From an uncultured Bacilli bacterium (GTDB lineage Bacteria; Bacillota_I; Bacilli_A; RF39; UBA660): 34,815 bases of DNA. The number at the start of each line of letters is the position of its first letter. Position 1 is the first letter of the stretch. Below the pieces are notes generated by a model. The model saw nothing but the letters and a program-made list of their open reading frames with translations, was not told the DNA's origin and did no database searches. Shown here in pieces: positions 73-30,876 of the stretch. The DNA is taken from the NCBI GenBank assembly GCA_947627635.1, contig CANQWT010000006.1:1-34815 (forward strand), given 5' to 3'. The position numbers and the translations under genes are program-made.

Positions 73-294
73 TCAAAAATTTTGAATAGCTGGTTCTTTT
101 ACCGGATTCACATCAATTGCCTGTAATCCCTTACTGGTTTCTAATAATGTAAATTCTACGTACTGACCTTCTGTCAGGGTTTTGTAACCATCATAGTTAA
201 TGGTTGAATAATGGACAAAGATATCTTCGTTTTCCTTATACTCGATAAAACCGTAGCCCTTTTCATTGTTGAACCACTTAACCTTGCCGACCAA
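73..294 (-). CDS. csp: Cold-shock domain protein (CspA family)
   Basis: [31 protein letters not shown] = CSD RNP1/RNP2 motifs; TTG start preceded by AGAGGTG. Confidence 0.93.
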
Positions 295-509
295 CTTGAG
301 GCACCTCTTTTCATTCTATATTACAAGATTTGACGTCGCAGCTTGCAGGAATAGTATATCCAACTTTTTCCATTTATTTTGCAAATATCTTTAATTTGTT
401 GTTTTGATGCCTTTAATTGAAATATATTTGCAATTTTACTAACAAATGTGACGTTCAAAGACGAAAAAATGAGGTTTTATTATCAAGAACTTTTTAACTT
501 TAAGTTGCA

Positions 510-518
510 TGTTACAAT
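510..518 (+). promoter_or_regulatory. Extended -10 of agrBD promoter
   Basis: TGTTACAAT (TGn-TACAAT), about 28 nt before agrB GTG; poor -35, suggesting an activator-dependent promoter. Confidence 0.45.
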
Positions 519-545: not shown

Positions 546-1154
546 GTGAAACAAGCATTTCTTGATAAGTCTTTAGCTTTTATTCTAAAAAACCAAGATA
601 AATATAAAGAAGAAGATATAGAAAAACTGCGATATGGATTAGAAGGAATTTATTTAACGATTACTAAAACTATTATTTTAGTAGGACTTAGTATCCTATT
701 AGGAATTGGTAAAGAGTTTTTTATTATGATGGTTCTTTTTAATATTATTCGCTATCCTGCTTTTGGATATCATGCAGATAGTAGTATTCAATGTTTAATT
801 CTATCAGGAGGTATTTTTTTAGGATTTACTTATTTATCAACAATTATTACTTTATCTTTTCAAACAAAGCTTATTCTTTATGGAGGTGTCTTTATTCTTT
901 TCTTACTTTTTGCACCGGCTGACACAGTCAAAAGACCTCTTACAAATAAAAAGAAGAGGATTATTAGAAAAATAGCATCACTTTTAGTTTTAGGTCTTTA
1001 TGGAATTTTTATCTTTATGTTAAAAACTAAAGAAAGTAATTATTTTTTAATGTCTATCATCATTGAAGCCATTTTTATATCACCTCTTCCCTATGTTTTA
1101 TTCAAATCATCATATCAAAATTATAAAAAAGTGGGTTTAAACAGAAATGTTTAA
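546..1154 (+). CDS. agrB: AgrB-like accessory gene regulator membrane endopeptidase
   Basis: GYHA-x5-C catalytic His76/Cys83 spacing, APADTVKRPL motif, multiple TM segments; GTG start with AGGAGG at 531-536. Confidence 0.93.
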   Translation: MKQAFLDKSLAFILKNQDKYKEEDIEKLRYGLEGIYLTITKTIILVGLSILLGIGKEFFIMMVLFNIIRYPAFGYHADSSIQCLILSGGIFLGFTYLSTIITLSFQTKLILYGGVFILFLLFAPADTVKRPLTNKKKRIIRKIASLLVLGLYGIFIFMLKTKESNYFLMSIIIEAIFISPLPYVLFKSSYQNYKKVGLNRNV

Positions 1155-1185
1155 ATAGATAAAAGAAAAGAAAGGAGGAACACTT

Positions 1186-1305
1186 GTGAAAAAAAGAATT
1201 TCTAAAGTTCTAGCTGCTGTTGCAATGCTTGCTACTGCTTCTGCATCATTAGGATGTGCTTGGTGGTGGTTTGATGAACCAAAAGCATTAGAAGACATGG
1301 ACTAA
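1186..1305 (+). CDS. agrD: AgrD-like cyclic autoinducer peptide precursor (39 aa), not in ORF track
   Basis: GTG start with AGGAGG 7 nt upstream; MKKRISKVLAAVAMLATASASLGCAWWWFDEPKALEDMD: amphipathic leader, Cys-hydrophobic core, DEP motif, acidic tail; directly downstream of agrB. Confidence 0.88.
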   Translation: MKKRISKVLAAVAMLATASASLGCAWWWFDEPKALEDMD

Positions 1306-1307
1306 AA

Positions 1308-1349
1308 AATAAAAAACTCTATTTCAATTTTTAAGAAATAGGGTTTTTT
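1308..1349. terminator. Bidirectional terminator between convergent agrBD and agrCA
   Basis: AAACTCTATTTC-N9-GAAATAGGGTTTTTT stem with one G-U pair, A-run and T-run on either side. Confidence 0.75.
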
Positions 1350-1395
1350 ATTGAATATTATTATCAATAATGTATTAAATTTTTTTGCTTTGTAT

Positions 1396-2682
1396 TTACC
1401 AAATTGTTAATTTTTGAACATAAAATTCATTCATAATTTTCTGAGTTCCTACAAAATTTTTATTCATATTTAATATTTTATTGGCAAAATATAGACCCTT
1501 TCCTCTTTTTACTCCTTTTGTACTAAATCCTTTTCTATTGATAGCTGTTAAATCTGGTTTATCTTTATAAGAATTGGATAACGTAAAAGTTAATTTATTA
1601 TTACAAACATAGATTTCTAACATGACAAGATGCTTTTTTGTATCTTCTGATGATTCAATGGCATTATCTAAATAAATTCCTAATAAAATATTGAGTTGCC
1701 TATTTGTTTCTTCACTTAAATTCTTTAATATTTTACTAACTTTAGGACTTACTTCCACATAAAAATCTATATTTTTATCTTTAGCAATTGCCATCTTATA
1801 ATAAAGTAATCCTTTGATACCACCTACTGGAATATTCTTTAATTGTTCTATCCACTCTTTTTCTATTACAATACTTTTTTGAAGTATATCATCAATTCTA
1901 CCATGAATTTTCTTATTGTTGGTCATTCCTCTAATAATTGATAAATTATTTTTCATCTCATGGATAGCTAATTCTTCCTTATCAATCCAATTTTCAAATG
2001 TTTGAATACAATGAAACAAAGAATCATACTCATCACTTAACTTATCATAGTTAATTTTCTCAACCATATAAATATAATATAAAACAGAAAAGATGATGAG
2101 TATAGTAAGAGCTAGTGAGTAGGCTTCGCTTGTTTTAAAGATTTCTATCATATTTTCATGAATCATAACAATGCCTAATATAAATAAAATAATAAACAAA
2201 ATGGTAGAAAAATAAACTTTTTTAGCTAATTTTTTAGCAAGAGCCTGAAAAAGTCTTTGAATGTATTTGACTTTAGAAAATAAAATAGAAATGATACTAA
2301 TACCTATATTACTAATCAACATAATATACCAAGTTTTTCTTGCTACGGTAACATCTACAAAGAATTTGGCAATACTACTCCATCCTAAATCAGCTAATGA
2401 TGTTAAAATCATTACAAATGCGCTTAATAACATTGCGTTAATTGTCTTTTCTTTATATAAATTTCTATAAGCAAGAATTGATAAAACAAAGGTAAAAAAT
2501 GGCACCATAGCATTAAATTTCACATCATAAAATATAATGGTTGGTGATGCAACTAATAAAACAGATAAAACCACTTCTATTTTATTTAATTTTTGTTTAT
2601 AACAAAGGAGATTTTTGCTAATAAATAATCCTGCAATGGCCATAATAATACCAATGGAATATTTACTTAACAACAATGACAC
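1396..2682 (-). CDS. agrC: AgrC-like sensor histidine kinase (HPK10 type)
   Basis: Six or so N-terminal TM segments; H-box IHEMKNNLSIIRG, N-box YLDNAIES, G-box STKGVKRGKGLY. Confidence 0.9.
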   Translation of the reverse strand: MSLLLSKYSIGIIMAIAGLFISKNLLCYKQKLNKIEVVLSVLLVASPTIIFYDVKFNAMVPFFTFVLSILAYRNLYKEKTINAMLLSAFVMILTSLADLGWSSIAKFFVDVTVARKTWYIMLISNIGISIISILFSKVKYIQRLFQALAKKLAKKVYFSTILFIILFILGIVMIHENMIEIFKTSEAYSLALTILIIFSVLYYIYMVEKINYDKLSDEYDSLFHCIQTFENWIDKEELAIHEMKNNLSIIRGMTNNKKIHGRIDDILQKSIVIEKEWIEQLKNIPVGGIKGLLYYKMAIAKDKNIDFYVEVSPKVSKILKNLSEETNRQLNILLGIYLDNAIESSEDTKKHLVMLEIYVCNNKLTFTLSNSYKDKPDLTAINRKGFSTKGVKRGKGLYFANKILNMNKNFVGTQKIMNEFYVQKLTIW

Positions 2683-3394
2683 TGTTAATCAACTCCTTCT
2701 TTTTATCCCTTGCAACTAAATGTGTTTTTGTACCGTTTTTAAAAGTTATTTCTCCTGTTTTTATTTCATATTGTTCTATTTGGTCTAAATTCACAATTAA
2801 ACTTCTGTGTACTTTCAAAAAACGATTATCTAGTAACTTATCAATCTCAGAAAGAGTTTTAGGAATTATAAAATCATTATAAGTGGTTCTAATAATACAT
2901 CTTTTACTGTCCTGTTCTTTTTCAATACAAATGATATGTCTAAACTCTATTTTATGAACAACATAGTTATATTCATAGTTGAGTGTTTTTTCACGATTGT
3001 CATAATTTTTCATTACAACTTTTAAAGCTTCTATGACTTTTTGTTTGCAATTATTCAGTTTACTAATAAAATCCAGAAGAAAAAGACGGTTACCCAAAGC
3101 TTCGTACCGATATTCACTAAAGGCTGTGACAATAATAATCAAAGATACCCAGTCATCCTGTTCTTCTCTTATAAACCTTGCAGCATCAATGCCACTACCG
3201 TTTCTCGTTTTGATATCTAAAAAATAAACTTTAAAGCCAATATCAGACTTTACCATCTGTACAAACTTTCTATCATAACTGGTAAAAGTATGTATTTCAT
3301 ATTCAATATCATAGCTCATCATAAAATTGTTGATGATTGCCTTCATATTTTCTAAAAAGGTTAAATCGTCTTCACACACGACAAAATTTAGCAC
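2663..3394 (-). CDS. agrA: AgrA-like response regulator, REC + LytTR
   Basis: CEDD acidic pocket, FLDI phosphoacceptor, LytTR region (FLKVHRSLIVNLDQI); overlaps agrC by 20 bp. Confidence 0.92.
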   Translation of the reverse strand: MLNFVVCEDDLTFLENMKAIINNFMMSYDIEYEIHTFTSYDRKFVQMVKSDIGFKVYFLDIKTRNGSGIDAARFIREEQDDWVSLIIIVTAFSEYRYEALGNRLFLLDFISKLNNCKQKVIEALKVVMKNYDNREKTLNYEYNYVVHKIEFRHIICIEKEQDSKRCIIRTTYNDFIIPKTLSEIDKLLDNRFLKVHRSLIVNLDQIEQYEIKTGEITFKNGTKTHLVARDKKKELINSVIVVK

Positions 3395-30712: not shown

Positions 30713-30738
30713 AATAACACCTCCTTTTTTGTATGAGG

Positions 30739-30847
30739 TCCATAAAAAAGTTCTTGATATTTTACCAAGAACTTTTCCTAAAACATTTTTATAAAAGTTT
30801 TAAAGTCCTCGGTAGGATTTACTTTTACCTACTGTCTATGGCACTCA
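30739..30847 (-). ncRNA. Ribosomal protein L10 leader
   Basis: Minus strand GACAGTAGGTAAAAGTAAATCCTACCGAGG and AAGTTCTTGgtaaaatatCAAGAACTTTTTT attenuator-like hairpin upstream of rplJ. Confidence 0.82.
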
Positions 30848-30876
30848 AATCAATAGTTATTATATGCATTTTTTAA

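Follow-up and report, generated by a model that had tools for sequence, protein, structure and literature searches.

Does the short open reading frame directly after agrB in the genome of an uncultured gut bacterium encode the precursor of an autoinducing peptide (AIP), and if so, what kind of cyclic peptide would it release? The frame lies on contig 6 of a 1.2-Mb draft metagenome-assembled genome (MAG; 96.5% complete) of an uncultured gut Bacilli, and the whole 34,815-nt stretch analysed is referred to here as the window (Table 1). The original prediction of a 39-residue frame with a GTG start and a Shine-Dalgarno sequence directly after agrB was found to hold exactly: the start codon is GTG, AAAGGAGG stands seven bases 5' of it, and 31 bp separate the agrB stop codon (1152-1154) from agrD. 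The product is MKKRISKVLAAVAMLATASASLGCAWWWFDEPKALEDMD, and its translation reads MKKRISKVLAAVAMLATASASLGC-AWWWF-DEPKALEDMD. A Pfam search of the peptide returned no match. An NCBIfam search, as the original prediction had proposed, placed the product above the curated cut-off of the AgrD model (TIGR04223, quorum_AgrD; 27.7 bits, 2.2e-6, against a cut-off of 19). The peptide has the features of AgrD proteins, namely a leader, a Cys/Ser ring core and a charged follower with conserved Glu and Pro (C24, E31 and P32 are invariant in alignment A3).

Table 1. Coordinates of the agr locus and neighbouring features within the window.
Feature	Position	Strand	Basis
cspA-like cold-shock protein gene, divergent from agrB	73..294	-	divergent cspA in relatives
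putative cspA promoter, TTGCAA - 20 nt - TATACT	353..384	-	sequence
putative AgrA/LytTR direct repeat TCAATTAAAG-(11)-ACAAATTAA, 21-bp period, facing cspA	391..420	-	motif search; S. aureus half-site test
putative -10 element (TACAAT) of agrBD	513..518	+	position kept across relatives
agrB, membrane cysteine endopeptidase	546..1154	+	Pfam AgrB PF04647, 117.5 bits (gathering score 23)
Shine-Dalgarno sequence of agrD	1171..1178	+	read from sequence
agrD, predicted 39-aa autoinducing-peptide precursor	1186..1305	+	GTG start, stop codon included; TIGR04223 match, kept beside agrB
AgrD leader, residues 1-23	1186..1254	+	hydropathy; [ST]-x-[GA]|C conservation; cleavage predicted
predicted ring core CAWWWF, residues 24-29	1255..1272	+	Cys spacing to [DE]EP; ring closure inferred
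C-terminal follower DEPKALEDMD	1273..1302	+	presumed removed by AgrB; E31, P32 invariant (alignment A3)
hairpin between convergent agrD and agrC, T-rich flanks on both strands	1309..1353	.	RNA fold z = -3.25
agrC, GHKL histidine kinase, hydrophobic multi-helix N-terminal half	1396..2682	-	Pfam HATPase_c_5; NCBIfam AgrC 68 bits; hydropathy
agrA, response regulator with LytTR DNA-binding domain	2663..3394	-	Pfam LytTR 56.5 bits; NCBIfam AgrA 70 bits

The frame belongs to a complete agr set, in which agrB and agrD run rightward and converge on agrC and agrA running leftward, so that a GHKL sensor kinase and a LytTR response regulator are linked to agrBD. In AgrB, H76 and C83 (H-x6-C), R69 and G74 are invariant in 23 relatives (alignment A2). 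A search by sequence for a solved AgrB structure found none; the solved structures closest to the AgrC kinase are 4bxi and 6e52, both of S. aureus AgrC, and AgrA is the best NCBIfam model for the response regulator. The convergent arrangement recurs in 86 of the 87 loci with enough 3' sequence, counts that are slightly inflated by a small number of loci present in both of two collections. The hairpin between the convergent genes is probably a bidirectional terminator, although it is absent from the output of a consensus terminator scan. Two loci each carry two tandem agrC copies (L171, 4824-7453, and L177, 4803-7664, both on the minus strand); the second may be an assembly artefact, because its AgrD core CVMFLC is also repeated and the scores are identical. 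The window further contains an ordinary ribosomal protein L10 leader RNA (RF00557, 55.5 bits; 30735-30859, minus strand) upstream of the L10 gene.

Conservation beyond this genome argues strongly for the same identity. Far from lacking AgrD homologs or linkage to agrB, which the original prediction had named as grounds against itself, 87 of the 91 AgrD matches in the family lie 3' of agrB on the same strand and within 600 bp. AgrB is present in 94 of 145 family genomes and AgrD profile matches in 85 of those 94, and AgrD is found in none of the 51 genomes lacking AgrB, since every genome with AgrD has AgrB. The family-specific profile recovered these 85 genomes, against 62 for TIGR04223 alone. 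Several of the nine AgrB genomes with no AgrD match break off at a contig edge or show a weak or partial AgrB match; in three (G076, G121 and G141) there is room for agrD beside agrB and none was recognised. Among same-genus relatives AgrD adjoins agrB in five of five, with 59-87% identity and the cores CLWWWF, CVLWWF, CVWWFV, CLIWLF and CLLWIL, and pN/pS within the genus is 0.44 for the whole frame and 0.49 for the ring, ratios that mark agrD as being under purifying selection. Tandem agrD copies with differing cores occur in two family loci (CLGFIF and CIGLVF in L065, 1017-1358, minus strand; CIVLWI and CMLLWL in L075, 1000-1600, plus strand).

The nearest named agrB records come from uncultured Bacilli MAGs labelled Lapin (rabbit, according to the label), followed by Candidatus Onthousia, Faecimonas, Aphodocola and Coprosoma, all of which we take to belong to the RF39 order. 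These relatives were found by an alignment search; a search with the single AgrB sequence gave none. No AgrB relative was found in the phage records searched.

A chance reading frame was rejected on the TIGR04223 match, the agrB-linked conservation and the pN/pS of 0.44. That the region encodes a small secreted lipoprotein, or is spurious, rather than a pheromone is extremely improbable and already refuted on sequence evidence: the hydrophobic leader with its Gly-Cys end superficially resembles a lipobox, but the lipobox pattern [LVI][ASTVI][GAS]C occurs in 0 of 132 family AgrDs and the window's own SLGC does not fit it, and the AgrD model match, the restriction to AgrB-positive genomes and purifying selection all speak against it. 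Positions 1186-1305 thus almost certainly encode a genuine AgrD, as judged from sequence. The original claim of an AgrD-type pheromone precursor is also borne out by the adjoining cognate agrB, agrC and agrA, and this AgrD is likely to give rise to a cyclic AIP within a full agr circuit of the kind proposed below.

The size of the ring is indicated by the spacing between the cysteine and the follower. The original prediction aligned CAWWWF with the staphylococcal CDFIM-DEP, an equivalence that is one residue off: five residues separate Cys from DEP here, against four in Staphylococcus. AgrDs of both Staphylococcus and Listeria have Cys-x4 ahead of a [DY]E motif, a five-residue format that the window's AgrD (Cys-x5-DEP) does not share, and AgrDs in other families of the class also follow a five-residue pattern (C/S-x4-[YH][EQ]P). 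In the family itself, the Cys of 132 of 138 distinct AgrDs lies exactly six positions ahead of [DE]EP (Cys-x5-[DE]EP); of the six exceptions, two carry Ser in place of this Cys, a known lactone substitution. The family core format is one residue longer, so a six-residue ring is predicted.

Between the two rings originally offered, family data thus favour CAWWWF and not CAWWW. The shorter ring would arise if AgrB cut one residue earlier (W28|F29), a cut with which composition alone would be compatible, W28 and F29 being hydrophobic alike; five-residue rings are moreover the most common AIP form (PMC12312760), and Listeria-type AgrDs have a single residue (Y) between ring and EP. However, cleavage directly ahead of an acidic residue and Glu reproduces the S. 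aureus pattern CDFIM|DE, the [DE]EP behind five variable positions is near-invariant, and rings of six residues are on record for C. acetobutylicum, which together make CAWWW improbable. The likely product is the six-residue ring CAWWWF, a reading that the family pattern supports well. Such a ring is not new in kind: the C. acetobutylicum AIP, listed as the six-residue ring [CVLVTL] (PMC12312760, PMC10301443), is the closest precedent, and a group of solventogenic clostridia is predicted to make six-membered rings (PMC10301443).

The ring sequence had been described as a distinctive chemotype, which overstates the case. Among the 132 family AgrDs with Cys-x5-[DE]EP there are 128 distinct cores. 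Hydrophobic residues (A, V, I, L, M, F, W, Y, C) make up 96% of the five variable ring positions, and charged ones do not occur there. At ring positions 3 and 4 Trp is more frequent than any other residue family-wide, and CAWWWF is one of four cores (of 132) with at least three Trp. By sequence it is therefore rare in its number of Trp yet continuous with relatives such as CLWWWF and CVLWWF. A second Cys is present in roughly one ninth of the family's ring cores (e.g. CIWWCL, CAWWCA and CVWFLC), where a disulfide or a differently closed ring might form; these cores belong to the AgrD frames of L128, L130, L131, L136, L138, L141, L144, L145, L148, L164, L165, L177 and L186.

Whether the mature peptide carries an exocyclic tail depends on where the leader is removed. 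The leader consists of a KKR n-region, a hydrophobic stretch and an ASASLG end, and resembles a signal peptide. The motif [ST]-x-[GA] stands immediately before the Cys in 122 of 132 family AgrDs, against 2.8% expected from leader composition. A junction of this kind resembles a site of leader cleavage, and no tail is therefore predicted; it could alternatively be an AgrB-recognition element and not a protease site. The SLG and LG tails proposed originally find no support in this pattern, which points to a tail-free ring. A mature peptide retaining SLG-, LG- or G-CAWWWF, freed by an MroQ-like CPBP protease, is the less likely outcome, although staphylococcal AIPs have tails of two to four residues and MroQ serves several of the S. 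aureus types (PMC12312760), and the host genome encodes a single CPBP protease with EExxxR-type motifs. Against it, the nearly fixed -3 (S/T) and -1 (G/A) positions with a variable -2 form a protease-site pattern directly before the Cys, and related systems have known tail-free AIPs. The tail-free AIP of C. thermocellum, whose leader is cut directly before the ring according to SignalP, has been confirmed by LC-MS (PMC5322536), and in Listeria the tail-free pentameric thiolactone rearranges, with a half-life of 1.3 min, into a homodetic ring (PMC11297923). For type I signal peptidase the genome gives one strong match (153.6 bits) and two weaker ones. On balance, mature CAWWWF would more probably lack an exocyclic tail.

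The output of the circuit may lie on the other side of agrB. A divergent cspA-like gene accompanies 96 of the agrB loci examined, nearly all agr loci of the family. An unsupervised motif search of 87 distinct intergenic regions recovered a direct repeat (about ACAnTTtAAGG, 21-bp period) facing cspA near a TATAAT-like element, with a good fit in nearer relatives and a poor one in more distant ones. In the window this repeat (391-420, minus strand) is followed by the putative cspA promoter elements TTGCAA and TATACT, 20 nt apart. The S. aureus P3 promoter likewise has a 20-nt spacer, with AgrA repeats just upstream (PMC4227749). The first matrix used for scoring the repeats had been set by eye on the same intergenic sequences, and the result was rechecked with the S. 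aureus half-site. For this test the half-site was taken to be ACAGTTAAG, a sequence that does not derive from the family's intergenic regions. A spacing of 21 bp was the best of 17 in both directions, with an excess of 0.41 +/- 0.09 facing cspA and 0.27 +/- 0.10 facing agrB, errors that are too small because the intergenic sequences are related. The window's own agrB-facing repeat does not rise above shuffled sequence (15.2 against a shuffle mean of 15.2). Overall, a link to cspA is plausible. A search of the host genome for further AgrA-like repeats gave no more matches than a reversed-pattern control; the only exact repeat genome-wide is the agr locus itself, the source of the pattern, and the next best apparently lies inside a coding region. 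From these sequence patterns, action of AgrA on cspA has about an even chance of being correct.

Building on the gene identities, operon, conservation, spacing and layout observed at the locus, we infer a mechanism covering cleavage sites, ring chemistry, AgrC ligand, receptor activity, AgrA targets and regulon. The AgrD leader would insert in the membrane, and AgrB, through H76 and C83, would cut between F29 and D30 (...CAWWWF|DEPKALEDMD) and close a thiolactone from Cys24 to Phe29. A membrane peptidase, either type I signal peptidase or the single CPBP protease as an MroQ analogue, would then cleave the conserved [ST]-x-[GA]|C junction, N-terminal to Cys24, and release tail-free CAWWWF, which may rearrange to a head-to-tail cyclic peptide, as tail-free Listeria AIPs do. 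AgrC would sense CAWWWF and phosphorylate AgrA, which would bind the LytTR-type direct repeats between agrB and cspA and activate cspA and probably agrBD.

Several known systems share parts of this design. The agrBD/agrCA system of C. acetobutylicum likewise has a six-residue ring listed without a tail and separate agrBD and agrCA operons (PMC12312760, PMC10301443), a likeness drawn from the listed AIP and the layout; its ring sequence differs, and it has the LanM-like CA_C0082 downstream where the window instead has convergent agrCA and a divergent cspA. The agrBDCA system of S. aureus (AIP-1) has homologous AgrB, AgrD, AgrC and AgrA, a follower that begins with an acidic residue and Glu, and LytTR-type repeats in the divergent intergenic region (proposed here for the window). 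However, S. aureus has a five-residue ring with a tail and four genes in one operon opposite RNAIII, whereas the window has a predicted six-residue ring and convergent agrCA, with cspA in the place of RNAIII. The Listeria monocytogenes AIP [CFMFV], with or without an Ala tail, is also a hydrophobic ring with a possible tail-free form leading to a homodetic peptide (PMC11297923), but it is a five-residue ring encoded in a single agrBDCA operon. The AgrD-type R5T0 lactone of C. thermocellum resembles the predicted product in that SignalP predicts leader cleavage directly before the ring residue and no tail is left (PMC5322536), but it is a five-residue serine lactone with no linked agrB. Convergent agrBD/agrCA and the same core spacing (S-x5-EEP) occur on a plasmid of Alkaliphilus sp. 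B6464 (NZ_CP058558.1; L213, 2501-5298), which belongs instead to the class Clostridia, has the serine core SVILIF and carries an AgrD annotated as hypothetical.

The peptide itself is a further member of the known AgrD type, its ring sequence being one of at least 128 on a shared template. The convergent agrCA, the cspA opposite agrB and the family-wide six-residue template could represent a system-level variant. A literature search combining RF39, agr and quorum sensing found no paper in the collection searched. AgrB occurs in about two thirds of the sampled genomes of the family, most of these with an adjacent AgrD, and the family provides a second and much larger set of six-residue-ring AIPs beside that of the solventogenic clostridia. 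Because the Cys-x5-[DE]EP template is constant, each ring can be read from its genome and made by synthesis, and receptor specificity and crosstalk could therefore be tested without culturing the bacteria. We tentatively propose that this family of small-genome uncultured gut Bacilli may form a distinct agr subclass, in which tail-free six-residue hydrophobic AIPs are processed at a site like that of signal peptidase, agrBD and agrCA converge, and AgrA controls a divergent promoter for a cold-shock RNA-binding protein in the position that RNAIII has in S. aureus. If this is true, each lineage would have its own ring sequence, and the family would constitute a large network of private signals among uncultured gut bacteria.
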